A stretch of 46,142 nucleotides of DNA from a virus, in the IMG/VR virus record IMGVR_UViG_3300028031_000005, positions 1-46,142 of that record; one strand, 5' to 3'. Shown piece by piece: positions 1-16,662 of the stretch. The position numbers and the translations under genes are program-made. The notes under the pieces are model-generated. The model saw only the letters and a list, made by a program, of their open reading frames with translations. It did no database searches and was not told the origin of the DNA. Every line of letters begins with the position of its first letter. The first letter of the stretch is position 1.

Positions 1-1
1 C

Positions 2-172
2 GAAGAGTACATGTTTCATTTTTCAGTGGCAATGAACAAGATAAGTATTGAAGCAGAAGCGTGGAACAATCTGTACGCTCTGTGTCACTCAGCAATAGAA
101 TCAGCAATAAAAGATCACAGCGCAACAAGGCTACCCATCAAAGAACTATCTGACATAGAGAAAGAGCGATGA
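2..172 (+). CDS. 3' end of an unidentified phage gene (partial)
   Basis: This is an open frame of 56 codons before the stop that enters from the left edge, so its start is missing. I do not recognise the product. The visible part is mostly helical and mixed in charge, with no membrane segment or cysteine motif, and ends in KELSDIEKER. Its TGA overlaps the ATG of the next gene, as in a translationally coupled phage operon. Confidence 0.6.
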   Translation, partial: EEYMFHFSVAMNKISIEAEAWNNLYALCHSAIESAIKDHSATRLPIKELSDIEKER

Positions 173-384
173 AGTACAACCTTATTAAGTTTAGCAACGG
201 TGAATTCGGAGTTAGGCGTTACGATCCTAAATACGGATGCAGCCAGTACTATGTCAGCGGCGTTAACTACTGGTTGGATATTCCCGATCAAAGTCGCTGC
301 TTCCTGCCAGAAAACGAAGCAAGAATAATCCTAGAAGAACTAAGAAACCCCAACAGCCCACCCACCTATGAGGTTATAGAATGA
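169..384 (+). CDS. small hypothetical protein, 71 aa
   Basis: I do not recognise the family. The product is soluble-looking and rich in Tyr and Asn, with a short beta-strand-like N-terminus (MKYNLIKFSNGEFGVRRY). The start is fixed by the 4-base ATGA overlap with the preceding gene, and the stop overlaps the next ATG in the same way, so it sits in a tightly coupled operon. It is probably an early accessory protein. Confidence 0.65.
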   Translation: MKYNLIKFSNGEFGVRRYDPKYGCSQYYVSGVNYWLDIPDQSRCFLPENEARIILEELRNPNSPPTYEVIE

Positions 385-515
385 ACATAGATAAATTTAT
401 ACCGTTTGCCTTCTTGCTGATTGGAATGGAGCTTATTTTGTTGTGGGATGGCGCGATAGAGTTTGGCGGTGTAGCGCTTATGCTGCTAGCGTATGAAATT
501 AAGCGCCACAAATGA
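381..515 (+). CDS. small membrane protein, 44 aa
   Basis: A short gene coupled at both ends by ATGA overlaps. The product begins MNIDKFIPFAFLLIGMEL and has two hydrophobic stretches (about residues 6-22 and 27-38) followed by a basic tail EIKRHK. It is probably a small inner-membrane protein. The function is unknown. Confidence 0.55.
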   Translation: MNIDKFIPFAFLLIGMELILLWDGAIEFGGVALMLLAYEIKRHK

Positions 516-706
516 CTCACGCCTTACTAGACATAGCCAGACCGCCAGAAATCGACGAAACTGTGGCACGCAGAATAATCGATGGTGCGAGCAAGTTTGA
601 AAAACATCAGATATCGAGCTACTACACAAGAGAAGCGTGTAAGCTTAAAATGAGCAAATATGAATTAATGCAGAGGCTTAAAAAACACCGGAGGATTTTA
701 GAATGA
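512..706 (+). CDS. small basic protein, 64 aa, possibly HTH-like
   Basis: I do not recognise the family. The product is helical, with a basic C-terminal half (KLKMSKYELMQRLKKHRR), and the segment YYTREACKLKMSKYELMQRL could form a helix-turn-helix. That reading is inference only. It is coupled to both neighbours by ATGA overlaps. Confidence 0.6.
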   Translation: MTHALLDIARPPEIDETVARRIIDGASKFEKHQISSYYTREACKLKMSKYELMQRLKKHRRILE

Positions 707-936
707 AACTTATGATGACGTTTTTAATATTGAATATAATATGTGCAGTTATTAACTTATATGTGGGAAATTCTGTTATTGGATTTGCTAATACTATCGC
801 CGCTTGCATTATTGGCTATATGGTATACGATCTTCGCAAAGACATAAAAGACAGGAGGCGAACGATTGAAAAAGTGTACTCTCTGTATGAGAAAAACGAT
901 TTAATTATTCTGAACAGCAAGAATATGGAAAGCTAA
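703..936 (+). CDS. small inner-membrane protein, 77 aa
   Basis: Two hydrophobic segments are visible (residues about 3-20 and 24-42), followed by a charged cytoplasmic tail beginning DLRKDIKDRRR. A GGAGG-like site (cggaggattttag) lies just upstream. The stop at 934-936 directly abuts the ATG of the zinc-finger gene. The function is unknown; small membrane proteins in this position may be exclusion or accessory factors. Confidence 0.6.
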   Translation: MKLMMTFLILNIICAVINLYVGNSVIGFANTIAACIIGYMVYDLRKDIKDRRRTIEKVYSLYEKNDLIILNSKNMES

Positions 937-1491
937 ATGAGCAGACAACTAGCCAGACTATCCATGCTAAACACCAAGCCGCAGAAGTTCAATACAATAT
1001 CAGGCGGGTTTGGTGGAATTAAGCCAGAGGATTTAGCAGGAGCCATGGCTTACGCTAAGATACACGACGACGCTAGCCGGTACATACGGGCTAAATACGT
1101 CATGTGTGGTGAGGATCAGGAGCGAGAATTAGCCAACGGCCTAATCCAAGCGGTAGCAAAAGAGTGTTTATTGCTCAAGCCATCGAACGAAAACAAACGT
1201 TTCAGGAAAGAGACACTAGACAAATTCGTGAACATGATGGTGCGCCAAGATATAAACCCAGCTAAGTGCATGCATTGCCGTGGCAAGGCTTACGATGAGT
1301 TCAGGCGCATATGTGGCAGTTGCAACGGAACCGGAAAGCAGCAACACACTCAGGTAGCCAGAGCCAACCTGTCGAACATCGACGTGAGCAACTACCAGCG
1401 CAAGTGGGCGCAGCATGAGAATGAGATAACTTCGATATTCCAGCGATGGGAGTCATTGACAGCGCGTAGATTGGCCGTGCAATTATCATGA
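937..1491 (+). CDS. zinc-finger protein, probable Q-like late antiterminator
   Basis: A 184-aa protein with one treble-cysteine module, CMHC (C111, C114) then CGSC (C126, C129), separated by 11 residues and followed by a basic C-terminal region. Phage Q-type antitermination proteins combine a Zn finger of this kind with a helical DNA/RNA polymerase-binding body, and they sit at the end of the early rightward operon just before the late genes. This gene has exactly that position. A Q protein would load on RNA polymerase at the late promoter and make it ignore terminators. The several terminators downstream (3779-3807, 3940-3968, 11622-11643) would need such a factor. The assignment rests on position, size and zinc motif, not on a clear family signature. 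A DnaJ-like Zn-finger protein of other function is the alternative. Confidence 0.6.
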   Translation: MSRQLARLSMLNTKPQKFNTISGGFGGIKPEDLAGAMAYAKIHDDASRYIRAKYVMCGEDQERELANGLIQAVAKECLLLKPSNENKRFRKETLDKFVNMMVRQDINPAKCMHCRGKAYDEFRRICGSCNGTGKQQHTQVARANLSNIDVSNYQRKWAQHENEITSIFQRWESLTARRLAVQLS

Positions 1492-1856
1492 AATATCTCG
1501 GCGATAGATTTGAATTTAAGGATGACGAAAAGAACGGCTGCTTAGTTGGTTCTGATGGCTGTCATTACGATAATAAAAAAGAGGCAATTTACTTTGCTGA
1601 GATAGGCTTGTGTGGATGTGGAAATCCAGAGGACGTACATAAATTCCTGTTGGATTGCATGAAAGCAACAGATGGAAATATTATTGACTACAAAAAAGTA
1701 TCTAAATTGATATCAGACAATCCAGACACCGTTACACAATTTGTTTTGCATTTTCTCGATAGCATAAGTTTTACAGAGCATGGCAGTTCTGTTTACGGGT
1801 CGTGGCTTACCGATCTTGGCAAGCAAGCGATTGAGATAGGCTCGATTAATGAATAA
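1488..1856 (+). CDS. hypothetical protein, 122 aa
   Basis: I do not recognise the product. It begins MKYLGDRFEFKDDEKNGC, contains a small cysteine cluster (GLCGCGNPEDV), and has a helical middle part ending in SWLTDLGKQAIEIGS. It is coupled by ATGA to the Q-like gene and is the last gene before the promoter that opens the anti-defence locus. Confidence 0.65.
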   Translation: MKYLGDRFEFKDDEKNGCLVGSDGCHYDNKKEAIYFAEIGLCGCGNPEDVHKFLLDCMKATDGNIIDYKKVSKLISDNPDTVTQFVLHFLDSISFTEHGSSVYGSWLTDLGKQAIEIGSINE

Positions 1857-1903
1857 CCATTTTCCCGATGCTGGCAATATAGTCTGCGATTAATTTCAAA
1901 TAA

Positions 1904-1936
1904 CGCTTGACACTGTACGTTATAAGCGTATACTTA
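1904..1936 (+). promoter_or_regulatory. promoter/operator copy 1 of the anti-defence locus
   Basis: A consensus -35 TTGACA (1907-1912) lies 16 bases before -10 TATACT (1929-1934). The spacer holds an inverted repeat, TACG at 1916-1919 and CGTA at 1927-1930. The 33-base block is repeated at 2989-3021 with 31 of 33 bases identical, so the same regulator should bind both. It drives the genes from 1968. Confidence 0.85.
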
Positions 1937-1967
1937 CTACATCAAGTTAATCAATGAGCAAGTAAGA

Positions 1968-2231
1968 ATGAAAGCAATGAAAGCCCCAATAAAGCTAAGC
2001 ATCACAATTAAGCGACCGAATGGTGTGATTGAAACATCAACCCACCCAAAACTGAAATATATCAGCGATGAGTCATTTGCAGTTATGCGAGCAGCTACGC
2101 TTGAGGCCGGTTTTGGTGAATGTTTAAGCTATGAGGTTACGTATGAAACAGTACGTGGCATGAGTAAGCGAGAAATGATGGGAGCTGGCGTTGATAGAAC
2201 TGTTGAGAATATGTCGAGAATGGGAGAGTAG
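1968..2231 (+). CDS. hypothetical protein, 87 aa; candidate anti-defence gene
   Basis: First gene of the operon controlled by the promoter/operator at 1904-1936. I do not recognise the product. It starts MKAMKAPIKLSITIKRP, looks like a small alpha/beta protein, and its C-terminal half is basic and Met-rich. Size and setting (promoter, inverted-repeat operator, HTH gene at the end of the operon, AcrIF11 homologue next door) match known anti-CRISPR loci, so an anti-CRISPR or other anti-defence role is a reasonable inference but is not shown by the protein itself. The ATG at 1968 is preceded only by a weak purine tract (gcaagtaaga). Confidence 0.65.
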   Translation: MKAMKAPIKLSITIKRPNGVIETSTHPKLKYISDESFAVMRAATLEAGFGECLSYEVTYETVRGMSKREMMGAGVDRTVENMSRMGE

Positions 2232-2234
2232 GAT

Positions 2235-2585
2235 ATGATCGCACTAAAACAACAAGTGAAAATTTATAAAATTGTGTGTGCCAGAAACATATCAATCCAC
2301 GATCAAGGAGCAGGATATAGCCTTAATCCGTGGGGCAGCAATACAACGGAAATTGAAGGGTATGACGATGGTGGTATGTTATACGACTTAGAGGATGGGT
2401 ATACGTTGAGCGCAACAAAGTACGGCGATAGAGCTATATATGACGTAGATCAAAATCATTGCGATATTGTTATTCACTGTTCTGGTAGGCCGCAGTTGGT
2501 ATCAGCAACCGACAAAATGCCAGTATTAAAACAAAACAGATCGGACTTAACGGGTCGCTTTTTAATCAATAGAACAGAGGTTTAA
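2235..2585 (+). CDS. hypothetical protein, 116 aa; candidate anti-defence gene
   Basis: Second gene of the same operon, 3 bases after the previous stop, with a good ribosome site (gagagtaggat). I do not recognise the family. The product is mildly acidic, rich in Asp, Gly and Tyr, with no membrane segment, and appears mostly beta-stranded. Acidic beta proteins of this size are frequent among anti-CRISPR and DNA-mimic proteins, but that is context only. The last codons precede the next small gene by one base. Confidence 0.65.
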   Translation: MIALKQQVKIYKIVCARNISIHDQGAGYSLNPWGSNTTEIEGYDDGGMLYDLEDGYTLSATKYGDRAIYDVDQNHCDIVIHCSGRPQLVSATDKMPVLKQNRSDLTGRFLINRTEV

Positions 2586-2586
2586 T

Positions 2587-2745
2587 ATGACAATCCAAGA
2601 AGCAAATAAATTTAAAAGAGGAATTGACAGAAAGCTGAGAGTTGAGGGTGTGTTACGACTACAGAGAGAAAAAGCCGAGAAAACTCTAGCAAGATGCGTT
2701 ATGGGTGGCATGATGGTCGAGGCGTTTAGGGTGCTTTACACATAA
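2587..2745 (+). CDS. very small basic protein, 52 aa; candidate anti-defence gene
   Basis: An open frame beginning MTIQEANKFKRGIDRK and ending in FRVLYT, coded between two better-defined genes with one-base spacings on both sides. It is strongly basic and helical. An SD-like agagg precedes the ATG. The tight fit between neighbours supports it as a real gene. No family is recognised. It belongs to the operon that ends with the Aca-like regulator. Confidence 0.55.
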   Translation: MTIQEANKFKRGIDRKLRVEGVLRLQREKAEKTLARCVMGGMMVEAFRVLYT

Positions 2746-2746
2746 T

Positions 2747-2995
2747 ATGAAACCACAACAACTAAAGAAAATACGCGAATCGTTCGACATGTCTCAAGCT
2801 GATTGGGCGGAGTTCACCGGATGCAATAAACGAACTATTCAGAATGTTGAGCAGGGTCGGACAAAGGCGAGTGACGCTTATTGCTCACTACTTAGGTTGT
2901 TGGTGATGGTTAGTGAGCATTCACCGCTGTTGATAATAGCTATGCGCATGCAGCGACAAGAAACTAATTTAAAAGATAACACTATTATCGCTTGA
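2747..2995 (+). CDS. XRE-type HTH regulator, Aca-like (anti-CRISPR-associated)
   Basis: An 82-aa protein with a Cro/CI-type helix-turn-helix at residues about 4-50 (KIRESFDMSQADWAEFTG, then RTIQNVEQGRTKAS), like the small HTH proteins Aca1-3 that repress acr operons. It is the last gene of the operon starting at 1968, and its stop codon (2993-2995) lies inside the -35 box of the promoter for the AcrIF11 homologue. The two promoters flanking it carry the same inverted repeat. The most economical reading is that it binds both operators and shuts down its own operon and the acr gene after the first burst of expression. HTH fold: clear. Aca role: inference from context. Confidence 0.8.
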   Translation: MKPQQLKKIRESFDMSQADWAEFTGCNKRTIQNVEQGRTKASDAYCSLLRLLVMVSEHSPLLIIAMRMQRQETNLKDNTIIA

Positions 2996-3021
2996 CACTG
3001 TACGCCATAAGCGTATACTTA
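2989..3021 (+). promoter_or_regulatory. promoter/operator copy 2, upstream of the AcrIF11 homologue
   Basis: TTGACA (2992-2997), 16-base spacer, TATACT (3014-3019). The spacer contains a perfect inverted repeat, TACGC (3001-3005) and GCGTA (3011-3015), around CATAA. It matches copy 1 at 31 of 33 positions. The ATG at 3026 is seven bases after the -10, so transcription should begin at or next to the start codon. Confidence 0.88.
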
Positions 3022-3025
3022 GCCC

Positions 3026-3445
3026 ATGAAATTAATACATACAAGCCCAGCAGAAATAACAGAGATATCAAACACAGGACTTTTTGGAGATTGCTTGTTT
3101 TTCTCAGCAAGCGAATACTCAATGGGTAGCGTTGAGGCTGTGTATAACATTGATATTCAAGGTGAAAAAATAATCGAAGTAGAAGATTTGGAAGACGATG
3201 AGACCGTAGACCACATATCCAGTGTTCTGAGCGTTAGCAAGGATGATGCGATAGACTTACTTTGTGGCGACGAGCAAGCCGGAGTGTTAACTGGTGACTT
3301 TGAAGATGATTGGTTCATTCAAGCTCAACAGGGTTATGTAGCAAAAAAGATGGGCTATGAAGCGGTTTTATCTAACGATGAGCAGGGTGCAGTTTACATA
3401 GTGCCAATGTTCGGTAGAGAATCAGACTTAGTTCGGGTGGCTTAA
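3026..3445 (+). CDS. acrIF11: AcrIF11-family anti-CRISPR (ADP-ribosyltransferase of Cas8f)
   Basis: A 139-aa acidic protein. From memory of the Pseudomonas aeruginosa AcrIF11 sequence, the match runs the full length: an N-terminal IHTSPAEIT block (residues 4-12), FG..LFFSASEYSM (20-33), a YNIDI strand, WFIQAQ and AKKMGY (96-111), then the most conserved part, NDEQGAVY and MFGRESDLVRV (117-138). AcrIF11 uses NAD to ADP-ribosylate Cas8f in the type I-F Csy complex, which blocks PAM recognition. His5, the Tyr31 region and Glu119 are the likely NAD-binding and catalytic positions (inference from ADP-ribosyltransferase folds). The gene has its own promoter with an Aca-type operator, no Shine-Dalgarno and a predicted leaderless mRNA, which suits rapid expression on infection. 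A hairpin follows at 3495-3525. Confidence 0.88.
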   Translation: MKLIHTSPAEITEISNTGLFGDCLFFSASEYSMGSVEAVYNIDIQGEKIIEVEDLEDDETVDHISSVLSVSKDDAIDLLCGDEQAGVLTGDFEDDWFIQAQQGYVAKKMGYEAVLSNDEQGAVYIVPMFGRESDLVRVA

Positions 3446-3494
3446 CAATAAGTCAGAGATAAAGTTTTAATAAGCTTTGGCATACTAAGCCCTA

Positions 3495-3530
3495 CCCCAG
3501 TGGGGCGCTGACGAATAGACTGGGGATTTA
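3495..3530 (+). terminator. hairpin after the acr gene, possible terminator
   Basis: CCCCAGT (3495-3501) is complementary to ACTGGGG (3519-3525), followed by ATTTATTT. An alternative local hairpin, CCCC-AGT-GGGG, uses the same 5' arm. The T-run is imperfect, so termination strength is uncertain. Confidence 0.45.
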
Positions 3531-3543
3531 TTTCAAAAACCAC

Positions 3544-3571
3544 TTGCCTTAACGCATAGTTTTGGTATAGT
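3544..3571 (+). promoter_or_regulatory. promoter for the structured RNA
   Basis: -35 TTGCCT (3544-3549), 16-base spacer, -10 TATAGT (3566-3571). Predicted start is at about 3578, just before the first helix of the RNA. No open reading frame of note follows before the terminator at 3779-3807. Confidence 0.55.
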
Positions 3572-3577
3572 AAATAT

Positions 3578-3807
3578 CTAGTGTGGCGAGTTGTCACAAA
3601 TAAACACTACGCCTGATGATTCCGTTGGGATGAAATACAAATGTATAGCGTAGGTCTACTAGGTTGGATGTCAGTAGAACAAGGCCAGCACTTAGCTGTA
3701 AACATATTCGATGAGTGTTTTTATAGCTAAGGCGGAACAAGCTGGTGAGGTATTCCGGTACGAAGTCAACCAAACAAGCCCAGTTCGTTAATTCGAGCTG
3801 GGTTTTT
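3578..3807 (+). ncRNA. structured non-coding RNA, about 230 nt
   Basis: This stretch lacks a credible coding frame and is framed by a promoter (3544-3571) and a strong intrinsic terminator. Perfect helices can be read by eye: TAGTGT 3579-3584 with ACACTA 3604-3609; CTACGC 3607-3612 with GCGTAG 3648-3653, enclosing ATAC/GTAT 3635-3646; TCTACT 3655-3660 with AGTAGA 3673-3678; CCAGC 3685-3689 with GCTGG 3741-3745, enclosing CTTAGCT 3691-3697 with AGCTAAG 3725-3731. The first two helices share bases and so exclude each other, which would allow a switch. I recognise no known RNA family. Its place between the acr gene and the late genes makes a regulatory RNA or leader for late transcription possible. 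Confidence 0.6.
3779..3807 (+). terminator. intrinsic terminator of the structured RNA
   Basis: CCCAGTTCG (3779-3787) pairs with CGAGCTGGG (3794-3802), nine pairs with one wobble, around a TTAATT loop, followed by five T residues. A textbook Rho-independent terminator. Confidence 0.9.
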
Positions 3808-3912
3808 ACAAAGTTTGAAAGTTTCTGGCAGATAACTGTGCTGCTTCGAAAGCGTGTAGGGTTTCAGTAGATCGCTGATAGCGAGAAAATATAGTCCGTA
3901 AGTGTCTTTAAA

Positions 3913-3936
3913 GCTGGTTCGAATCCAGCCTGCACC
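3913..3936 (+). other. tRNA T-arm-like hairpin with acceptor-like 3' strand
   Basis: GCTGG-TTCGAAT-CCAGC (3913-3929) has the stem and loop of a tRNA T-arm, including the GTTCGAATC core, and is followed by CTGCACC, which looks like an acceptor 3' strand. Upstream, a GTGTAGG segment (about 3854-3860) could pair with CCTGCAC, and TCAG/CTGA could form a D-like stem. I find no anticodon arm. It is therefore a tRNA relic or tRNA mimic rather than a working tRNA. The terminator at 3940-3968 follows directly. Confidence 0.45.
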
Positions 3937-3939
3937 TAG

Positions 3940-3968
3940 ACCCGCATCCTAATCGGTGTGGGTTTTTT
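3940..3968 (+). terminator. intrinsic terminator before the Panacea gene
   Basis: CCCGCATC (3941-3948) pairs with GGTGTGGG (3955-3962), with two wobbles and a closing A-T pair, followed by six T residues. It isolates the T-arm-like element from the next promoter. Confidence 0.85.
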
Positions 3969-3979
3969 ACGTTAAACTG

Positions 3980-3988
3980 TGCTATAAT
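3980..3988 (+). promoter_or_regulatory. extended -10 promoter of the Panacea gene
   Basis: TGC-TATAAT (3980-3988) is a perfect extended -10. No good -35 is seen, which is usual for this class. The ATG at 3995 is seven bases downstream of the -10, so the transcript should be leaderless. Confidence 0.7.
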
Positions 3989-3994
3989 ACAGGC

Positions 3995-4468
3995 ATGAAA
4001 TATGATGTAATAACCGTTGCAGATAGAATTCTCAAAACAGCTAAACTAAAGAGTGCCGCATTAACTCCATTACAGCTTATGAAGTTAGTTTATATCGCTC
4101 ATGGTTGGCATTTAGCTCTTTTTGATTCTGATTTGTTTTCTAACAAAATAGAAGCGTGGAAGTATGGCCCAGTAATTCCTGACTTGTATCACGCTACTAA
4201 AAGCTTTGGTCGTAGCCCGATACCACTTAACATAATATCTGATGATCCTGCTGGCGTTGATGATCTTGATCGCGCGTTCCTTGACGATGTGTATGAAAAA
4301 TATGGTCACTTAACTGGAATTCAATTATCTTCATTGACACACCAAGCTGGTACTCCTTGGGATCAAGTATATGAAGATGGCGTACGCAGCAAAGAAATTA
4401 GTGATTCTTTGCTTAACCACCACTACAAGGGATTGCTAAATGATCATGATCTTGCCACAGCGGCCTAA
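3995..4468 (+). CDS. Panacea/SocA-like domain protein (DUF4065, GepA type)
   Basis: A 157-aa protein starting MKYDVITVADRILK. The segment LTPLQLMKLVYIAHGWHL followed by IEAWKYGPVIPDLYHA is the signature of the Panacea/SocA family (phage-associated GepA). These proteins act as antitoxins, or as adaptors that bring toxins to ClpXP, in several toxin-antitoxin systems; phages also carry them alone. The longer frame from 3956 is rejected because it would run through the terminator and promoter, and the ATG at 3995 sits exactly seven bases after the -10. The stop overlaps the start of the next small gene, which would be the expected place of a cognate partner. Confidence 0.85.
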   Translation: MKYDVITVADRILKTAKLKSAALTPLQLMKLVYIAHGWHLALFDSDLFSNKIEAWKYGPVIPDLYHATKSFGRSPIPLNIISDDPAGVDDLDRAFLDDVYEKYGHLTGIQLSSLTHQAGTPWDQVYEDGVRSKEISDSLLNHHYKGLLNDHDLATAA

Positions 4469-4665
4469 TGATGAAATCATCAGATGAAATGATTGAGACA
4501 ATCGGCAATAATGAGAAAACTATCTCTAGGTTAGAGGACTCAGGTCACGAGTGTTCATTTCTAAGAGAGAATCTAGCCAAACAGATTCATTGCGCAGAGC
4601 AAACGCTTATAATGGAAATGTCTTTCTCCAATTCATTTGGTAGACAAAACATTGTGATGCATTAA
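4468..4665 (+). CDS. hypothetical protein, 65 aa, coupled to the Panacea gene
   Basis: It overlaps the Panacea stop by one base, so it is translated from the same message. The product (MMKSSDEMIETIGNNEKTIS at the start) is helical with a possible coiled coil at residues 5-48 and two cysteines. No toxin family is recognised. Because Panacea antitoxins pair with unrelated toxins, it could be the partner, but it has no visible nuclease or membrane motif. Confidence 0.6.
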   Translation: MMKSSDEMIETIGNNEKTISRLEDSGHECSFLRENLAKQIHCAEQTLIMEMSFSNSFGRQNIVMH

Positions 4666-4730
4666 ATTATAGCTATTTGTCATGTCAGGATTAACGAACC
4701 GATCAGTAACTTTAATAACGAGGTAAAACT

Positions 4731-4907
4731 ATGGTTGGAAGCTTGCTAAAAGCTGTTGTAGGTGTCGCTGTTGATCTGCCGGTGTCCGTAGTAAAGGATG
4801 TTGCGACGCTGGGAGGCGAGTTAACAGGCGATGATAGCGCGATAGTTGAGAGCTTAGATAACATTGGTCAGAACTTGAATAATGCGGTCGATCCAGACAA
4901 AGACTAA
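4731..4907 (+). CDS. small protein, 58 aa, hydrophobic N-terminus
   Basis: An open frame beginning MVGSLLKAVVGVAVDLPVSV, with a ribosome site (cgaggtaaa). The N-terminal half is amphipathic and Val-rich, like a short membrane-associated helix; the C-terminal half is acidic (LTGDDSAIVESLDN). Similar short Val/Gly-rich proteins are common near phage terminase genes. The function is unknown. Confidence 0.6.
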   Translation: MVGSLLKAVVGVAVDLPVSVVKDVATLGGELTGDDSAIVESLDNIGQNLNNAVDPDKD

Positions 4908-4921
4908 ATTGAGGATAAGCA

Positions 4922-5104
4922 ATGAGCGAAGTAATCAATAGAATTGTATCCACTTCCTATGATGAAGACGGTGACGAACAGTATTTAATTACAGGAAAGC
5001 ATACGATAGCTGATATAGCTCGCTGGATTGTAGAAAACAACTGGCATGATGAAATCCTTTTTATGATCGATGAAGAAGTACAGAAAAATAAGGAAACTAA
5101 ATAA
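4922..5104 (+). CDS. small acidic protein, 60 aa
   Basis: I do not recognise the family. It has a strong ribosome site (ttgaggataagca) and an acidic product with one predicted helix (HTIADIARWIVENN). Its stop overlaps the next ATG by one base. Confidence 0.6.
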   Translation: MSEVINRIVSTSYDEDGDEQYLITGKHTIADIARWIVENNWHDEILFMIDEEVQKNKETK

Positions 5105-5277
5105 TGAACATTAAAAATAGCGTTGGAATCAAAGACGACAATTATGGCTTGATTGATTACGATGCATTGTGGATAAAGGCAAATACCATAGGAAAGTTTT
5201 TCACTATGTCTGTAGCTCAAATGGTGAGCAACGCTATAAAAGATCAAGACCTGATTGAGGGTTGGGAAGTGAGATGA
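5104..5277 (+). CDS. hypothetical protein, 57 aa
   Basis: A short gene that overlaps the previous stop (TAATG). The product starts MNIKNSVGIKDDNYGLIDYD and has no recognised motif. It is probably co-translated with the gene before it. Confidence 0.55.
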   Translation: MNIKNSVGIKDDNYGLIDYDALWIKANTIGKFFTMSVAQMVSNAIKDQDLIEGWEVR

Positions 5278-5305
5278 TCAAATCAGTTGCGCACGGGGAG
5301 TACAG

Positions 5306-5461
5306 TTGAGTAATCCAATCCATAGAAAGATGCAATCACTCAGGGGTGAGATATACATCATCACGAGGAAGAAAGTCGAAGAAATATTATCTGATAATGT
5401 AGATTATGCGAAGCTTAGTGATAAACCAGCCAAGCACAGAACTAGTTTATCAGACAAATGA
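5306..5461 (+). CDS. small basic protein, 51 aa, TTG start
   Basis: The frame has no ATG at its head. TTG at 5306 is preceded by a strong GGGGAG site seven bases upstream, and the stop overlaps the ATG of the Ntn-hydrolase gene (ATGA), so it looks translated. The product is basic (IHRKMQSLRGEIYIITRKK). The function is unknown. Confidence 0.5.
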   Translation: MSNPIHRKMQSLRGEIYIITRKKVEEILSDNVDYAKLSDKPAKHRTSLSDK

Positions 5462-5859
5462 CCACAATAGCATGGGACGGTAAGACGCTAGCAGCAGACA
5501 GCCAAATGACGAGTGATTACATAGAAACCGTGTCACTCAATAAGATATTAATCAACAAAGACCATACTATCGGCGGGGTTGGTAGTTGCTCAGACATAAA
5601 AAGATTCTCACAAGATATCTCTATGCAGATTGGCAAAGAATGTGAGGCACTAGTCATAAGTAACAAAACAGGGAAATGCCAGTACCATTGTGATTCAGGG
5701 TCGCCGCTTGATATGAACTTTATAACAGCTATTGGTTCGGGTGCTAAGTTCGCAATGGGCGCTATGCTAGCCGGTGCAGACGCTAAACAAGCCGTAAAGA
5801 TAGCATCAAAGCTAGACCCATACACTGGCGGCAGAATCAGATCAAAGAAATTTAAGTAA
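5458..5859 (+). CDS. HslV/proteasome-like Ntn hydrolase
   Basis: A 133-aa protein beginning M-TTIAWDGKTLAADSQMTS. HslV and proteasome beta subunits start with a catalytic Thr exposed by removal of the first Met, followed by the same T-T-I-x-x-D-G-x-x-x-A-A-D pattern. Further matches are the IGGVGSCSDI strand and the C-terminal block AIGSGAKFAMGAMLAGADAK, which corresponds to the conserved Gly-Ser-Gly region of HslV. At 133 residues it is shorter than HslV (about 175). Family membership is strongly suggested; substrate and partner are not known. Its place directly before the terminase suggests a packaging or head-related protease, or one that acts on host proteins. Confidence 0.8.
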   Translation: MTTIAWDGKTLAADSQMTSDYIETVSLNKILINKDHTIGGVGSCSDIKRFSQDISMQIGKECEALVISNKTGKCQYHCDSGSPLDMNFITAIGSGAKFAMGAMLAGADAKQAVKIASKLDPYTGGRIRSKKFK

Positions 5860-5871
5860 TCACGTAAAAAC

Positions 5872-5905
5872 ATTGAACGAGATTCAATTAATGCAGCGAG
5901 GCTGC
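5872..5905 (+). promoter_or_regulatory. two inverted repeats just before the small terminase gene
   Basis: ATTGAA (5872-5877) and TTCAAT (5883-5888) form a perfect 6-bp inverted repeat. GCAGC (5893-5897) and GCTGC (5901-5905) form a second hairpin, whose loop and 3' arm contain the GAGG ribosome site of the next gene. They may control translation of the small terminase or form part of a packaging signal. Confidence 0.4.
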
Positions 5906-5906
5906 T

Positions 5907-6377
5907 ATGTCAATAACGAAACCAACAAAAATAGAGGCGACTAAAGCTGCTGAAAGCTTCATCCTATACGGAGACAAGACAAAAGCATTCAGAGCTGCGT
6001 TTCCAAAGAGCAAAGCAAAGAAGGAATCAATGAATGTATTGGCTATAAAGCTACATTCTAGCGTTAAGGTTCAGTTAATGATTCAAACTTTGCGCAGTGA
6101 GATGGAGGTTGTTGTTGTTGATGGCGCTGAGTTTTCTATTGAAAGCAAAAAAAGATTATTAATAAGTACGGCTATGTATGGCGTTGAGCAAGAAGTTATT
6201 GCAAAGCCAAAGTGGATGAAAGACGAAGATTACGACCCAGAGTTTAAGCAACGTAACCCACAAGCGACAGTATCAGCAGTTAAAGAATTGAATTTAATGG
6301 ATGGTGATCACGCGGCTAAAGAATTTAAGGTAGAGCAGACAAGCTTGGAAGAATACCGGAATCGACTTGGCAGGTAA
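5907..6377 (+). CDS. terS: small terminase subunit
   Basis: A 156-aa protein with an N-terminal helical DNA-binding region (TKAAESFILYGDKTKAFRAA, residues about 11-30), as in the Terminase_2-type small subunits, a middle oligomerisation region, and a charged C-terminus. It lies directly before the large subunit, which starts 11 bases inside it. It would recognise the packaging site and load the large subunit. Identification rests on the N-terminal pattern, size and order. Confidence 0.85.
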   Translation: MSITKPTKIEATKAAESFILYGDKTKAFRAAFPKSKAKKESMNVLAIKLHSSVKVQLMIQTLRSEMEVVVVDGAEFSIESKKRLLISTAMYGVEQEVIAKPKWMKDEDYDPEFKQRNPQATVSAVKELNLMDGDHAAKEFKVEQTSLEEYRNRLGR

Positions 6378-7968
6378 TTTAGAGCTATATGACACAGGCG
6401 AAGAATTACTAAACAAGGTTCTAGCTGATCCAGAATGCCGACAACATTGGCTTGATGGGTTATTTAATAAGTGGTTCCGGTTAAATGTTTTCTATGATAT
6501 AAAAAACGACGATGGAAAAGTAATACCATTTCGCGCAAATGACGCGCAGGTTGATTTGTTTATCAATCAGCATTATCGCGACATTTGTCTAAAGGCAAGG
6601 CAGTTAGGATTCACCACTTTCGAGATGCTAGATGCTCTGGACAGTTGTTTATTTGTTGATAACTTTAACGCTGTTTGTATTGCGCATGACCGTGAATCTG
6701 TTGTTGATATCTTTGATAACAAAGTTAAATTCGCTTATGAAAGTTTAGATTTTGGAATATTCCAAAAGATTACAAACGGTCAATTTTCAATTCCCAACAC
6801 GCGGATTGATTCTGCGCATGCTTACAAATTCAGCAACGGGTCAAAGATTCGAGTCGCGACAAGCTCACGCGGCGGAACAGTTCAGAAACTGCATATATCT
6901 GAGTTTGGTAAGATATGCAAAAAATATCCAGAAAAGGCGAAAGAAATTGTTACAGGTTCATTTGAGTCTGTAGCGCAATTCGGCCATCTAAGCATTGAAA
7001 GCACGGCTGAAGGTAAAGAGGGTTACTTTTTTAATTTCTGCGAAGGTGCGAAAGATAAGACTGAACACGCTGCGCTAGAGTTTAAACTTCACTTTTACCC
7101 ATGGCATGGCAAGCCAGCATATTCGAGCGTAGATGGAGAAATAAACCCGTCTCTGGTCGAATATTTTGACGAGCTAGAACACAAGCATGAAATACATTTA
7201 TCTGACGGACAAAAGCGCTGGTATAGCCTAAAGTATAAAACGCTAGGCGATGATATATTTCGTGAACATCCTTCAACTTATGATGAATGTTTCAAGGTTT
7301 CTGTAGAAGGCGCTTATTACAAGAAAGAATTTCTACAGATATACAAAGACGGCAGGATCGGCGAACCGTTAAACACAAAGTTTTCAGATGTTTGTACGGC
7401 TTGGGATATTGGAACAAGCGATTCAACAGCGATTTGGTTTTATATCCACATTGGAAACGAAATTCATGTCATCGGTTATTATGAAAACCATAGCGTTGGG
7501 TTAGAGCATTATTTAAAAGTTTTATCTGACAAGGGTTATCAATATAAAACCCATTACGCGCCTCACGACATGGACAACCGGCAATATGCCGTGAAGGCGA
7601 AAACGCTTAAAGAATTAGCGTCCGAAGGCCTTGAAGCAGAGGACGGATTTACCTACAGCGCAGAATTTACTATTGTTCCTAAGATTGGAGTCAATGACGG
7701 GATTGCGCACGTTAGAAACACACTGAAGAGGTCTTATTTTTATGATAATGGTGAAATTGATAAACCAGACGACTTCCCAAAAGTCACGGTCGCGCACGGG
7801 GTTAAGTGCCTTGAAAATCATAAAAAGATTTGGGATGACAAGGGCGGATTTTGGCAAGACAAGCCAAAACATGACTGGACTTCGGACGGCTCTGACGGGT
7901 TTCGTTATTTGTCAGTTGCAGAGAATCTAATGATTGAGTACTCAGGAACAAACGACGATCCATTCTAA
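6367..7968 (+). CDS. terL: terminase large subunit
   Basis: A 533-aa packaging motor. ATPase part: adenine-binding Q-like segment FRANDAQVDLF (55-65), variant Walker A KARQLGFTT (76-84), Walker B LHISEF (175-180) and coupling motif STAEG (212-216). Nuclease part (RNase H fold): WDIG with Asp347, HYAPHDMDN (396-404) and a C-terminal Asp cluster DGSDGFRYL. It translocates DNA into the prohead and cuts it. The start is TTG at 6367, overlapping the small subunit by 11 bases; the next in-frame ATG would remove the N-terminal region. The portal gene begins directly after the stop. Confidence 0.96.
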   Translation: MAGNLELYDTGEELLNKVLADPECRQHWLDGLFNKWFRLNVFYDIKNDDGKVIPFRANDAQVDLFINQHYRDICLKARQLGFTTFEMLDALDSCLFVDNFNAVCIAHDRESVVDIFDNKVKFAYESLDFGIFQKITNGQFSIPNTRIDSAHAYKFSNGSKIRVATSSRGGTVQKLHISEFGKICKKYPEKAKEIVTGSFESVAQFGHLSIESTAEGKEGYFFNFCEGAKDKTEHAALEFKLHFYPWHGKPAYSSVDGEINPSLVEYFDELEHKHEIHLSDGQKRWYSLKYKTLGDDIFREHPSTYDECFKVSVEGAYYKKEFLQIYKDGRIGEPLNTKFSDVCTAWDIGTSDSTAIWFYIHIGNEIHVIGYYENHSVGLEHYLKVLSDKGYQYKTHYAPHDMDNRQYAVKAKTLKELASEGLEAEDGFTYSAEFTIVPKIGVNDGIAHVRNTLKRSYFYDNGEIDKPDDFPKVTVAHGVKCLENHKKIWDDKGGFWQDKPKHDWTSDGSDGFRYLSVAENLMIEYSGTNDDPF

Positions 7969-9372
7969 ATGATAAATAATCCTTCATCAATTTGTGCTGC
8001 AATGATTACGCAATGGAAGCTACCCGAGACTTTATTCGGGGACACTCCAGCAATGAGAGCGGCGAGCACAACATATCTACCTCAACGGTCTAAAGAAAGT
8101 GATGCCGCTTATGATGTGCGGCTTAATGAAACAACACTTGTAAATTATCTAACACCTGCAATTGAATCATTGAGCGGCAAGGTATTCAGCAAGGAGATTG
8201 TGGTAGGTGAAAACCTAAAGCCATATCAAGACTGGTTAGATAATATTGATATGGAAGGGTCGAATATTAACGAGTTTGGCAAAGAGCTATTTGTGGCTTC
8301 AGCATTGCGGGGCGTGACTTACATAGTTGTAGATGCCCCATTTGCAGTTAAAGCAGATAATCTTAAAGATCAGAAAAACAGTAATGTTCGACCTTATTTG
8401 GTTCACGTAACGGCTAATCAAATAATTGGATTTAAAACTAGGATCATCAACAACGTAAAAACTTTGTCAGAGGTCAGAATTTCTGAAACGATAATCGAGA
8501 CTGATGAAGATTATAATGAGGTAGAAAAAGAGAGAGTACGAAAGCTATTTATTCCTGAATCAGGCGGTCGCGCCGGTTGGGAGATACACGAGCCTGTAAA
8601 CACAGACAAAGGCATTGAGTGGGTTAAAACCGAGGAGGGTTTATTCAGCGTTGACTATATTACGATCATTCCTTATTACACAAATAAGCAGGGATTCATG
8701 CAGGCTCGAACATACTTTACGACGCTTTGCTATATTAATCTCCAGCATTGGAACTCATCAAGCTATCAGCGCAACATTTTAAATACGGCTCGCGTTCCAA
8801 GATTAACGGGGTTCGGATTTGGTGAAGATGAAATAAAAGAGTTTGAAAAGCATGGTGTAGCTAATGGTGTCTTTTCAACGAATAAAGATGCAACAGCTGG
8901 TTGGATGGAGTGCGAAGGCAAGTCTATTGGGCATGGTGAGAGAGACCTTAAGAGCATGGAGGAACAAATGGCGCTGCTATCACTTGATCCTATTCTTAAA
9001 AAAGAAACCACGACGGACTTGGCAACGGTCGCAAACATCGAATCATCTAAATCTAACTCAGTGATCGAGCAGTGGGCTGGAAGTTTACAGGCTGCACTAA
9101 TCGATGCCATTGTTATCATGGGCGAGCTGGCAAACAGGAAGATTGATAAGCCGGATATAAAAGTTAATGACGAATATCAGTTGATTGACAATTCGGCTGT
9201 TTCAATGAAGGAATTGCGAGAGCAGCGCGGCGCTGGAGACCTTTCTCGGAGAACTCTATTAACCGAGGCCAAGAGGATCGGTTTTTATGATGACGATTTT
9301 GATGTTGATACAGAGATATCATTGATTAAGGCGGAAGAAAACGACGAAGACGAAGGCTTCAATGAAAGTTAA
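7969..9372 (+). CDS. portal protein, DUF4055 family
   Basis: A 467-aa protein right after the large terminase. The N-terminal pattern (ITQWKLPETLFGD, then NYLTPAIESLSGKVF at about residues 55-69) and the long central beta/helical part match DUF4055 portals of siphophages. It forms the ring at the capsid vertex that holds the terminase and later the neck. The C-terminus is very acidic (KAEENDEDEGFNES), as is common in portals. The last 11 bases overlap the minor head gene. Confidence 0.92.
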   Translation: MINNPSSICAAMITQWKLPETLFGDTPAMRAASTTYLPQRSKESDAAYDVRLNETTLVNYLTPAIESLSGKVFSKEIVVGENLKPYQDWLDNIDMEGSNINEFGKELFVASALRGVTYIVVDAPFAVKADNLKDQKNSNVRPYLVHVTANQIIGFKTRIINNVKTLSEVRISETIIETDEDYNEVEKERVRKLFIPESGGRAGWEIHEPVNTDKGIEWVKTEEGLFSVDYITIIPYYTNKQGFMQARTYFTTLCYINLQHWNSSSYQRNILNTARVPRLTGFGFGEDEIKEFEKHGVANGVFSTNKDATAGWMECEGKSIGHGERDLKSMEEQMALLSLDPILKKETTTDLATVANIESSKSNSVIEQWAGSLQAALIDAIVIMGELANRKIDKPDIKVNDEYQLIDNSAVSMKELREQRGAGDLSRRTLLTEAKRIGFYDDDFDVDTEISLIKAEENDEDEGFNES

Positions 9373-10378
9373 TGACAGGCTGCAAGATGATGCAATCATG
9401 GAGGCCGTGCGGTTTAAGAAGCTTCAGAACAGAACGTATAGACGATTAATAAAAAGTTTAATCGAAACATACCAAGAAGTTATTGGCGACATCAACAATG
9501 AAAATCTAACATCATTTCAGGCTCGGAGGCTAAATCAACTAGCTGCCGGAATTAAAGATAAGTTACAAGCTGCTTACGCTGCGATGGGGTTAGAGTTAGA
9601 ATCAATGCTGCCATCAATGGTGACAGACACAATTGCAACAGGCGGGTCATCATTAGATTCTGCGGTCGGGGTTGCGTGGACTAGCACACCATCTACTGCG
9701 ACAACGTACGCGACCGCATACGCTAGGCCATACCAAGGCCGATTGCTACGTGAACATTTCGCAAAGTTGCCGGTAACGATATCAGATTTGGTTAAGCGCC
9801 AGTTACGAATAGGCTATCAGTCTGGCGAAACAACAACTCAGGTTGTGGCGCGAGTCAACAAAATATTAAAGCGTCAAGGTAAGGCTTGGAATCGCACGTT
9901 AATCAATACCGCGATGACTCATTTCCGTGGCGTTGCGGTAATGTCGCTGTATAAAGCAAATGCTGGAGCGATACGGGGCATAAAGTGGAATGCAACGCTA
10001 GACACGCACACGACAGAGTTTTGCTATGCAAACGACGGTAGAGTATTTAAAATCGATAGAGTTCCGTTATACCCAAATCATTACAATGAGAGGTCGATTT
10101 TAACTCCAGAACTTTTACCGTGGGATAAATCAGGCATAGACGTACCAGTAGGAACGCGCTCTAGTATGGACGGGCAGATTTCAGCAGAACTGAACGCCAA
10201 ACAATGGCTAGAGCAAAGCTCGTTCAGTCGTAAATCTGAGGCGATTGGTGTTACTAAAGCAAAGATGAATAGAGAAGGCGTATCGATTGAAGACATGTTT
10301 CTTAAAAACAGAATGTACACGCTACCAGAATTAAAGGTTAAATTTCCAGACCAATACGCGGCGGCTGTTGCAATATGA
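9362..10378 (+). CDS. minor head protein, SPP1 gp7 / Mu F family
   Basis: A 338-aa protein with the head-morphogenesis signature in its second half: NTAMTHFRGVAVMSLY, then TLDTHTTEFCYANDGRVF and VPLYPNHYNERS (about residues 180-245). This family binds the portal and helps DNA ejection or capsid assembly. In the usual motif the last block is HPNCRC; here it reads YPNHYNERS, so the normal Cys cluster is lost. The region before it has a typical helical spacer. Confidence 0.9.
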   Translation: MKVNDRLQDDAIMEAVRFKKLQNRTYRRLIKSLIETYQEVIGDINNENLTSFQARRLNQLAAGIKDKLQAAYAAMGLELESMLPSMVTDTIATGGSSLDSAVGVAWTSTPSTATTYATAYARPYQGRLLREHFAKLPVTISDLVKRQLRIGYQSGETTTQVVARVNKILKRQGKAWNRTLINTAMTHFRGVAVMSLYKANAGAIRGIKWNATLDTHTTEFCYANDGRVFKIDRVPLYPNHYNERSILTPELLPWDKSGIDVPVGTRSSMDGQISAELNAKQWLEQSSFSRKSEAIGVTKAKMNREGVSIEDMFLKNRMYTLPELKVKFPDQYAAAVAI

Positions 10379-10629
10379 ATTTAGCCTTGGTTGAAACTAA
10401 AAAACAACCATCGTATCGAGATAAAAAAGCAGATGGTAAGTTTATATATTCATGCCCTCGTTGTGTTAAAAGCTGCACGGTAATTATTGAACACACATTG
10501 CCGCAAGAGAACGGTAGGCAGATTTTTCTAAATACACTTAGTCAAAATAATGTTGCAAAATGCGGTTTATGCGGTGAGATTGTTGCTATACTTAAAGATC
10601 ATAAATGGTTAAAACTTGCAGGAGTTTAA
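10375..10629 (+). CDS. zinc-ribbon protein, 84 aa
   Basis: Coupled by ATGA to the minor head gene. CPRC (about residues 24-27) and CGLC (about 63-66) form a four-cysteine zinc ribbon. The family is not recognised. The place inside the head module suggests a small accessory protein rather than a structural one. Confidence 0.65.
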   Translation: MNLALVETKKQPSYRDKKADGKFIYSCPRCVKSCTVIIEHTLPQENGRQIFLNTLSQNNVAKCGLCGEIVAILKDHKWLKLAGV

Positions 10630-10630
10630 A

Positions 10631-10849
10631 ATGAACGAACCAACAGTTACAGCAACACAAATTGTGCTACAAAAAGAAATTGCAGAAAGATATATTACTG
10701 AAGCGGCGCGTAGAGCATTGAGTGAATTCAAGTCTAACACTGGAATATCAATTGCATCTGTTACAGTGCCGATGATGAAAAGAAATACTATCGCGAGTGA
10801 ATATAAAGAATATGTAGTCTGCGGTGTTGAGTGTGACATAGCTTTATAA
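10631..10849 (+). CDS. hypothetical protein, 72 aa
   Basis: Start chosen at the ATG at 10631 because AGGAG at 10620-10624 is well placed; a TTG 15 bases upstream is less likely. The product begins MNEPTVTATQIVLQKEIAER and is an alpha/beta protein of unknown function. Confidence 0.6.
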   Translation: MNEPTVTATQIVLQKEIAERYITEAARRALSEFKSNTGISIASVTVPMMKRNTIASEYKEYVVCGVECDIAL

Positions 10850-10851
10850 TC

Positions 10852-11127
10852 ATGATTAACCGCAGAGGCTTTCTAACAGCAACGCTAGCGGCTGGCGTGG
10901 CTCCGGCATTTGTTAAGGCTGAAAACTTAATGGGGCTTTATGTTCCTAAGCCCATAGCCATTCCAGAATTCATAGTGGGTAAAAGCTACACCATTTCGCA
11001 CGGAGATTATATTTTTAATAGCATGTTGGTCGAGTCTGTTGAGTGGCCGGATAAAAACACAATGCACGTAAGTTTTGCATGTCCTTTTGGTAATAAGGTG
11101 AACAGCATGATCATTACAAAGACATGA
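10852..11127 (+). CDS. small secreted protein with Tat signal peptide, 91 aa
   Basis: The N-terminus MINRRGFLTATLAAGVAPA, ending FVKA-EN, is a complete twin-arginine signal: Arg-Arg-x-Phe-Leu, a hydrophobic core, and an Ala-x-Ala-like cleavage site at about residue 23. The mature part is a short beta-rich domain (IVGKSYTISHGDYIFNSML). Folded proteins leave the cytoplasm by this route. Phage genes with Tat signals are uncommon, though short ones beginning RRGFL recur in several siphophages. The function is unknown. Confidence 0.75.
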   Translation: MINRRGFLTATLAAGVAPAFVKAENLMGLYVPKPIAIPEFIVGKSYTISHGDYIFNSMLVESVEWPDKNTMHVSFACPFGNKVNSMIITKT

Positions 11128-11324
11128 ACAGATACAGATCAACTCCAAGACTTTATAAAGTAACTGGATGTGTGATGTGGTTTACTCAAGAGAGATATTT
11201 AATATTCTTTTGGCGTGATTGCATTATTGAAGGTAGTGGTGTTTATTTCTACGAACACCAAGCCTATGAAGCTATTAATGGCGTTTCTGAAGAAGATAAA
11301 ACTAATTTTAGTATTGAGGCTTGA
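11124..11324 (+). CDS. hypothetical protein, 66 aa
   Basis: Coupled by ATGA to the Tat-signal gene. The product is aromatic-rich (MWFTQERYLIFFWRDC) with a charged C-terminus. No family is recognised. Confidence 0.55.
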   Translation: MNRYRSTPRLYKVTGCVMWFTQERYLIFFWRDCIIEGSGVYFYEHQAYEAINGVSEEDKTNFSIEA

Positions 11325-11326
11325 TT

Positions 11327-11596
11327 ATGATGAATAATTTAGGTGTGTTCTCTGTCGCTGGAACAATGAAGATGACTAGCAACTGGGCGGTGATAGATAG
11401 GGTGCTTGCAGAACAAACATTAGATATTGATAAGCAGAGACGCAAATATAATTATACATTTCCCCAGATAGATTTTGAGAGGCTGCTAGCTAACGCGAAC
11501 GATTTTCAAGAAACCAGCTATAAATTAGGCACTATGGACATTCTAAAGAAATGGTATAAGCTTTTAATTGCTGGCGAAGAATTACCGATTAGTTAA
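11327..11596 (+). CDS. hypothetical protein, 89 aa
   Basis: The start is placed at ATG 11327, seven bases after a GAGG site. An upstream in-frame TTG at 11321 is weaker. The product begins MMNNLGVFSVAGTMKMTS and is helical in its second half. It is not recognised. It is the last gene before the terminator at 11622-11643. Confidence 0.6.
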   Translation: MMNNLGVFSVAGTMKMTSNWAVIDRVLAEQTLDIDKQRRKYNYTFPQIDFERLLANANDFQETSYKLGTMDILKKWYKLLIAGEELPIS

Positions 11597-11621
11597 ACTA
11601 ACAAAACAAGAGATTTAATAG

Positions 11622-11643
11622 GATCGCTTCGGCGGTCTTTTTT
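11622..11643 (+). terminator. intrinsic terminator before the scaffold gene
   Basis: GATCGC (11622-11627) and GCGGTC (11632-11637) close a TTCG tetraloop, followed by six T residues. It would separate the minor head genes from the scaffold/coat genes unless an antiterminator acts. Confidence 0.85.
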
Positions 11644-11675
11644 ATGGCTGCTCGGATGGGTGGCTTTTTTAATGT

Positions 11676-11706
11676 CCGCGATGCGGATTCAATAACCGCG
11701 ATGCGG
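11676..11706 (+). repeat. two copies of an 11-bp palindrome-like repeat before the scaffold gene
   Basis: CCGCGATGCGG occurs at 11676-11686 and again at 11696-11706, 20 bases apart. Each copy is itself an inverted repeat (CCGC/GCGG around GAT). They lie between the terminator and the preferred scaffold start, so they may be a protein-binding site or a small RNA hairpin pair. Confidence 0.5.
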
Positions 11707-11718
11707 GGGATAGAAGAA

Positions 11719-12462
11719 ATGAGATTGAAAGGCATATTAGAAAGCATAGATGATTTGGATGAATCAATAGCTGGGTGTTATACCAAAAACGAAAAAGGCT
11801 TGTTTGAGCTTGATGTAGATTTAGATGGTACTGGACACAAAAGTGCATTAGATAAAATCAAAACTGAACGAAATACGCTTAGAGCGTCATTGAAAAATTC
11901 AGAGGATGCTTTAGCGGTTTACAAGCCGATTATGGATTTGGAGGATTTTGACCCTTCAACAATTTCAGATTTAATTGTTAAGGCTGAGGCGGCTGGTGAT
12001 CCAGAAGCAATTGAAAAACTGCAACGCCAGCACGAAAAGCTACTAGGCGAAGCAAACGAAAAAGTTACAAAAGCCGAGGAGGATTCATTGAAATCTAAAT
12101 CGGCAATGAAGAAATTTATCATTAAGGGTGTTCAAAAAGATGCGGCTATTGATGGCGATGTCAGGCTAGATAATATTAGTGATGTAGTAACATTGACCAG
12201 CAATCATTTTGACCTTGATGAAAATGATGAGGTTATCGTCGTTGATGACGAAGGTGACCCAACAGGAAAAACTCCGAAGGAGTATTACGCGTCTGTTTAC
12301 AAAGAACAAAAACCTCAGTTTTACAACGCTGAAGGTCTTGAAGGAAGCGGCGCAAGAAAAACTACTACCCGAGGGGCAGAAAAAACAATATCTCGAACCA
12401 AATGGTCGGCGCTTGATCCACAAACTAAAGCGGCTATGGCTAAAACACACACAATAATTTAA
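11719..12462 (+). CDS. capsid scaffolding protein
   Basis: A 247-aa acidic, highly helical protein directly before the coat gene, as expected for a scaffold. Long charged coiled-coil segments are visible (KLQRQHEKLLGEANEK; KAEEDSLKSKSAMKK), and the C-terminus is basic (ARKTTTRGAEKTISRTKW), typical of the coat-binding end. The start is placed at ATG 11719, with GGGGGA eight bases upstream. The longer frame from 11644 would begin exactly at the end of the terminator, with no ribosome site. Confidence 0.82.
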   Translation: MRLKGILESIDDLDESIAGCYTKNEKGLFELDVDLDGTGHKSALDKIKTERNTLRASLKNSEDALAVYKPIMDLEDFDPSTISDLIVKAEAAGDPEAIEKLQRQHEKLLGEANEKVTKAEEDSLKSKSAMKKFIIKGVQKDAAIDGDVRLDNISDVVTLTSNHFDLDENDEVIVVDDEGDPTGKTPKEYYASVYKEQKPQFYNAEGLEGSGARKTTTRGAEKTISRTKWSALDPQTKAAMAKTHTII

Positions 12463-12474
12463 AGGTAAAAAAAG

Positions 12475-13617: not shown

Positions 13618-13625
13618 CTTAGATG

Positions 13626-13666
13626 AATATCGACGGTTGATAACTTGACCGTCGATATTTTAATTT
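13626..13666 (+). terminator. hairpin terminator after the coat gene
   Basis: A perfect 12-bp stem, AATATCGACGGT (13626-13637) with ACCGTCGATATT (13648-13659), then TTAATTT. Placed here it would raise coat mRNA over the downstream tail genes, as is common after coat genes. Confidence 0.85.
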
Positions 13667-13689
13667 AAAGATTATTTGAGAGGCACAAA

Positions 13690-13851
13690 ATGAGCGGTAA
13701 AAAAGACAGTAAGAAAGTGGCTGATAAATCTAAGGCTAGTTCAAAATTGGTCGCAATGAAGAAGATCAATCTTGATGGTGATGTTGTTCGAACGGCTGAT
13801 GTACACCCAGATGAAGTAGCAAACTTTCAAGCGGGCGGCTGGAGCAAATAA
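13690..13851 (+). CDS. small protein after the coat gene, 53 aa
   Basis: Begins MSGKKDSKKVADKSKAS; the second half (KKINLDGDVVRTADVHPDEV) recurs in small proteins found after coat genes in many siphophages. It is basic at the N-terminus. The ribosome site is gagaggc. The stop overlaps the next start (TAATG). The role is not known; a head accessory or connector peptide is possible. Confidence 0.7.
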   Translation: MSGKKDSKKVADKSKASSKLVAMKKINLDGDVVRTADVHPDEVANFQAGGWSK

Positions 13852-15661: not shown

Positions 15662-15670
15662 GCAATCAAA

Positions 15671-16594: not shown

Positions 16595-16628
16595 CTCTTT
16601 AATGGCGGCTGGCATTAACAAGTAAACT

Positions 16629-16662
16629 CCTGCACTTGGTCAGTCGTCATTAATCTTGCAGG
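16629..16662 (+). other. inverted repeat in the gap after the tail tube gene
   Basis: CCTGCA (16629-16634) and TGCAGG (16657-16662) form a perfect 6-bp stem with a 22-base loop. There is no T-run, so it is not an obvious terminator; it may slow transcript decay or lower chaperone expression. Confidence 0.35.

Follow-up and report, generated by a model that had tools for sequence, protein, structure and literature searches.

An AcrIF11-family anti-CRISPR gene preceded by a duplicate of a putative repressor operon's promoter-operator in a phage genome

How phages gain anti-CRISPR genes without loss of control over them is a question for which the locus described here could serve as a cheap test. 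The window, by which we mean the whole 46,142-bp stretch of DNA analyzed, is a virus record (IMGVR_UViG_3300028031_000005) with terminase, portal, major head, tail and replication genes, and the anti-CRISPR homolog that it holds is thus carried by a mobile element. AcrIF11 is among the few known enzymatic anti-CRISPRs. A sequence-only reading of the window had placed a gene of this family at 3026-3445, in a neighborhood that it did not recognize. In this report, we found that this gene adds a member to the known family, and that the promoter-operator of an adjacent regulator operon recurs directly in front of it.

The open reading frame at 3026-3445 (plus strand, + below) begins with ATG and encodes 139 amino acids. 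The IHTSPAEIT, LFFSASEY, NDEQG and GRESDLVRV segments that had first suggested AcrIF11 can all be read in its translation. Because an in-frame TAG lies upstream at 3020-3022 and the conserved N-terminus of the family begins at position 3026, this ATG is the only plausible start. The proposed likeness over the whole length was borne out by the NCBIfam equivalog model NF052490 (“AcrIF11 family anti-CRISPR ADP-ribosyltransferase”), which aligns over profile positions 1-142 of 142 (E=1.4e-30) and, at 107 bits, clears its cut-off of 50. In the PDB, sequence searches ranked the two solved AcrIF11 proteins first: a single-sequence search returned 8dwq (AcrIF11Pae2) at E=2.7e-14 and 6kyf (AcrIF11Pae1) at E=3e-5, and a 17-sequence profile returned them at 1.8e-39 and 2.4e-9, respectively. 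An AlphaFold2 model of the protein (pLDDT 93.9, pTM 0.87) has the AcrIF11 crystal fold; it matches 8dwq at 2.1e-7 and 6kyf at 6.2e-7. No other PDB entry reached E≤0.001 in the fold search, the next being 8gug, a toxin with its antitoxin, at 0.03. Matches of the protein to the Pfam families LuxE, UBA and DUF3126 were below cut-off and were taken as chance, and PADLOC returned nothing for it, as expected of a library of defense systems.

The catalytic residues are also retained. H5, Y31, D118 and E119 align with H20, Y46, D146 and E147 of AcrIF11Pae2 and do not vary across 21 aligned viral sequences. In AcrIF11Pae2, the double mutants H20A/Y46A and D146A/E147A lose both the ADP-ribosylation of Csy1 and phage protection (PMC12421852). 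Besides these four residues, the window protein shares with AcrIF11Pae2, a mobile-element protein of Pseudomonas aeruginosa (PDB 8DWQ), homology over the whole length, the fold, the HTSP, Y and DEQG motifs and the C-terminal LVRV, although the two are only 36.8% identical. AcrIF11Pae1 (PDB 6KYF) is more distant (33% identity over the 114 residues compared); it has the same fold and the same D/E catalytic loop, with D115/E116 aligned to D118/E119, but has neither the TSP nor the EY motif of the branch to which the window protein belongs. Given the curated family model, the profile search, the high-confidence fold and the catalytic residues, the protein is almost certainly a member of the AcrIF11 family, as judged from its sequence.

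In a tree, the window protein groups with a homolog from L009 (support 99/93; 60% identical) and then with those of L012 and L010, all from metagenomic viruses; we know of no tested member of this branch. It is very likely that the protein inhibits a type I-F system, and ADP-ribosylation of Cas8f (Csy1) would be its expected activity by analogy with the family (PMC12421852). A type I-F CRISPR-Cas system in the host is a reasonable inference from the presence of acrIF11. Among 298 genomes of the L038 host family there was one AcrIF11 match, too few to gauge co-occurrence with type I-F Cas genes. Two other homologs (L025 and L026, each at 4001-4984) bear an extra, fused C-terminal part of 186 residues, and that of L025 matched nothing in Pfam, NCBIfam or the PDB.

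The feature that sets this locus apart lies upstream of the gene. Two 30-nt sigma70-type promoters, P1 (1907-1936, +) and P2 (2992-3021, +), are identical at 28 of 30 positions. P1 reads TTGACA-N16-TATACT and contains the near-palindrome TACGT-TATAA-GCGTA at 1916-1930; P2 contains the perfect palindrome TACGC-CATAA-GCGTA at 3001-3015 and has its -10 box at 3014-3019. The inverted repeat TACGC-N5-GCGTA, with one mismatch in P1, thus lies within the -35/-10 spacer in both. With up to three mismatches allowed, the 30-mer occurs twice in the window and in none of 100 shuffles, and no other site in the window agrees at more than 20 of 30 positions. A third, degenerate copy 3' of acrIF11 (ATACTAAGCCC, at ~3482) was rejected, 52 of 1000 shuffles having scored equally well. 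P1 precedes four genes spaced 1-3 nt apart: orf87, orf116, orf52 and hth82, the last encoding a helix-turn-helix (HTH) protein. P2 shares nucleotides with the stop codon of hth82 and is followed immediately by acrIF11.

Comparison with a sister phage, L002, suggests how this arrangement arose. L002 is a 39-kb viral contig whose terminase differs from that of the window. Across its regulatory half, short and highly conserved blocks form a mosaic that is colinear with window positions 30361-46142 plus 1-5113. L002 carries the operator, again with the inverted repeat in the spacer, as a single copy (TTGACGCTGTACGCCGTAAGCGTATACTTA) directly upstream of orf52-hth82, and acrIF11 is absent from the whole record. 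Relative to L002, window positions 2975-3528, comprising P2 and acrIF11, are an insertion that separates the hth82 end from a conserved block of 69 nt (3529-3597, +; 98.6% identical in the sister phage). As L002 has one copy of the operator and lacks the anti-CRISPR gene, acrIF11 either came in together with a copy of the regulator's operator or was put downstream of one. In viral contigs, the operator DNA had no match under a strict pattern, and a relaxed pattern retrieved the sister phage only; one of 2.9 million viral contigs therefore holds the pattern, in one copy, and it is the contig that carries hth82. In the open-licence literature, we found no acr gene with a second inverted-repeat promoter beside an aca gene. 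If confirmed, an acr gene outside an acr-aca operon and behind a duplicate of the regulator's operator would be new.

The first three genes behind P1 are not known acr genes. orf87 (1968-2231, +) has no Pfam, NCBIfam or PHROG family at E<0.01, and the sole viral relative found is in L041 (53% identity over 53 amino acids). That relative is flanked on either side by a 113-nt element with promoter-like hexamers, the two copies (4860-4972 and 5290-5402 of L041) being 96% identical. orf116 (2235-2585, +) is an orphan, with no relative in viral contigs or phages and no match in Pfam, NCBIfam or PHROG; its single-sequence model (pLDDT 34.5) was uninformative. orf52 (2587-2745, +) has a 96% identical counterpart in the sister phage, there the sole gene between the operator-promoter and hth82; orf52 had no relative in phage records and matched no toxin or other family in Pfam. 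It is a candidate either for an anti-defense gene or for a partner of hth82, whereas orf87 and orf116 are candidate anti-defense genes. The three could equally be ordinary early phage genes, as small open reading frames are common early in phage genomes and the family and structure searches for orf87 and orf116, like the Pfam search for orf52, gave no match. On the other hand, all three sit in the operon of hth82 and behind its operator, and anti-defense genes cluster upstream of aca (PMC7648647); moreover, the sister phage keeps orf52 but has neither orf87 nor orf116. We rate the chances that at least one of the three has an anti-defense role as even.

The fourth gene, hth82 (2747-2995, +), encodes an 82-residue, repressor-like protein of the HTH_3 family (26.1 bits; gathering cut-off 23). 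Its position suggests that it is a probable Aca (anti-CRISPR-associated) repressor, since acrIF11 lies behind a copy of this regulator's own operator. Several characteristics of Aca proteins are present. The known Acas that have been listed are short HTH proteins of 55-140 residues, a range into which hth82 falls. An inverted repeat inside the core promoter has been reported for every bacterial Aca family analyzed (PMC9410906), and one is found in P2 before acrIF11, as well as in P1 and in the sister copy. The operator and hth82 travel together in two phages, between which hth82 is 82% identical; combined with the repeat inside the core promoter, this matches the described signature of Aca repressors (PMC9410906). 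Like the acr-aca operons of Aca1 to Aca12, the locus combines a short HTH protein and a sigma70-type core promoter bearing an inverted repeat with several small genes in a row ahead of the HTH gene. But the published pattern is usually an operon in which aca follows acr, whereas acrIF11 is downstream of hth82 behind a second promoter-operator copy of its own. For this reason we propose that hth82 acts like an Aca and do not assign it to a named Aca family. It is a probable Aca-like repressor of acrIF11, and it is fairly likely to control both P1 and P2.

The ancestry of hth82 bears on this proposal. Its nearest solved relatives are HigA-2 antitoxins (E=8.5e-5), it is 36-38% identical to plasmid MqsA-like antitoxins over 52 amino acids, and in the libraries searched it was not recognizable as one of the known Aca families, its match to Aca3 (9vt3) being marginal (E=0.051). 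The protein may therefore be an antitoxin-derived regulator. It is of a HigA/MqsA-like HTH type that differs from those of the acr-aca operons; its only close relative was found in the sister phage, and 84,980 bacterial and archaeal genomes yielded none. Another explanation, then, is that hth82 and orf52 are a toxin-antitoxin remnant, or some other accessory repressor, and that the second operator put acrIF11 under hth82 by accident, with no dedicated Aca involved. The antitoxin matches favor such a history, as does the retention of orf52-hth82 in a sister phage that lacks acrIF11. Further, on two plasmid lineages, Alteromonas NZ_CP018030.1 (L004 4230-5432) and Providencia NZ_CP072454.1 (L008 2606-3691), acrIF11 lies directly 3' of a Gp49-type toxin gene and an HTH antitoxin gene, so that acrIF11 evidently can ride on antitoxin-regulated operons. 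These plasmids share with the window an antitoxin-type HTH gene directly upstream of acrIF11, but there the toxin is present and acrIF11 is apparently in the same operon, whereas the window has no recognized toxin and a separate operator copy. In a Photobacterium plasmid, acrIF11 is likewise directly 3' of an HTH gene; two viral loci (L027 and L030) have the reverse order, with an HTH-like gene after acrIF11. The HTH gene adjoining acrIF11 is thus of the antitoxin type in several unrelated elements. Against a remnant, orf52 matches no toxin or other Pfam family. The contrast with an Aca is, besides, largely one of naming, as hth82 would regulate acrIF11 through P2 either way. We consider the remnant explanation rather unlikely.

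With hth82 as an Aca-like repressor, the locus could work as follows. P1 would drive orf87-orf116-orf52-hth82, and P2 would be the own promoter of acrIF11; both would fire together on infection. acrIF11 would be strongly transcribed on entry, before the repressor builds up, and its product would bind NAD and transfer ADP-ribose to Cas8f (Csy1) in the assembled type I-F Csy complex, thereby blocking interference. Since modification of Cas8f by AcrIF11 is catalytic, little protein suffices (PMC12421852). As hth82 accumulates, it would bind TACGC-N5-GCGTA in both core promoters and shut P1 and P2 down. The published reason for acr repression is that strong acr transcription interferes with downstream late genes (PMC9410906), and this rationale would fit a locus immediately upstream of a late-promoter-like site and the packaging genes. 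That AcrIF11-type ADP-ribosyltransferase activity toward Cas8f, expression from the duplicate P2 and repression of both promoters by hth82 act together here is, in our estimation, likely. If so, duplication of an operator adds an anti-CRISPR gene outside an acr-aca operon and still leaves it under the same repressor.

A changed substrate, with the AcrIF11-fold enzyme modifying another host defense protein or another Cas subtype in place of type I-F Cas8f, is improbable: the low identity to AcrIF11Pae2, a helical region in which the family varies most (PMC12421852) and a tree group of metagenomic viral members only (L009, L010, L012) would allow it, but the curated equivalog cut-off is exceeded twofold, and Pae1 and Pae2, which are comparably distant from each other (~27% similar), both act on Csy1 (PMC12421852).

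The start of acrIF11 is unusual in its own right. In P2, the -10 box stops 6 nt short of the ATG, and the gene has no Shine-Dalgarno-like 4-mer, which is present in 29 of 30 distinct relatives. These facts suggest that the acrIF11 transcript is probably leaderless, with a predicted start at or next to the ATG; we found no leaderless anti-CRISPR transcript in the open-licence literature. A broader proposal is that operator duplication produced a regulon here, in which hth82 represents a new family of HigA/MqsA-like HTH repressors with two operators, orf87, orf116 and orf52 encode new anti-defense proteins, and acrIF11 forms a leaderless cassette. We advance this more tentatively, at somewhat below even chances. 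In any event, the locus yields a candidate Aca-like repressor with a precise predicted operator, as well as three small candidate genes.

The surroundings are as unfamiliar as had been claimed. Window positions 1-20000 had no nucleotide match in 50,697 phage records, and the gene order is indeed unusual: an HTH regulator operon, whose operator-promoter recurs before acrIF11, is set between a weakly Q-like antiterminator gene and packaging genes. The upstream border gene (937-1491, +) encodes a 184-residue protein with a CxxC..CxxC zinc-finger-like motif; residues 122-181 match phrog_127, Q-like, at E=8.9e-5, and the protein is 61% identical in L002. At the downstream border is the gene for the terminase large subunit (6367-7968, +), which is ~45-51% identical to terminases of Pseudoalteromonas, Vibrio and Shewanella phages. 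The host is probably a marine gammaproteobacterium. Just upstream of the terminase genes, 5458-5859 encodes a protein of the HslV/proteasome-like peptidase family (phrog_1040, E=1.3e-32). Elsewhere in the window, an int-alpA RNA (Rfam RF02996; 40890-40958) scores 41.1 bits, above the gathering score, upstream of a replication-initiation-like gene.

The 69-nt block at the 3' edge of the insertion holds an extended -10 promoter-like site, TTGCCT-N16-TATAGT (3544-3571). Its position, the weakly Q-like gene upstream and a ~230-nt leader with a terminator-like hairpin make it a possible late promoter. The putative untranslated leader RNA (3572-3806, +), proposed from sequence and fold, ends in a GC-rich hairpin and T-run at ~3774-3806 and has no match in Rfam. 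Window positions 3529-3810 and L002 positions 6219-6440 share the promoter block and then diverge into different RNAs, each with a terminator-like hairpin, an arrangement like the lambda pR'-tR' late leader. L002 has a tRNA-Met (cat) at 6519-6592, in the interval that corresponds to window positions 3840-3940. A tRNA-like piece can be discerned there by eye (pairings GTGTAGG/CCTGCAC, TCAG/CTGA and GCTGG-TTCGAAT-CCAGC), which ARAGORN rejects; across 3446-3994, ARAGORN at normal settings gave no tRNA or tmRNA, and Rfam gave nothing up to E=5.

Beyond this interval is an orphan gene for a SocA/Panacea-domain protein (3995-4468, +; PF13274, E=6.7e-21; phrog_1281, E=3.9e-40), with no toxin recognized beside it. 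An antitoxin domain of this kind could be useful to the phage against toxin-based host defense. As at acrIF11, an extended -10 box (TGCTATAAT) ends 6 nt before the ATG. The sister phage has the 33-nt promoter block (3966-3998) at 97% identity, with a different sequence behind it.
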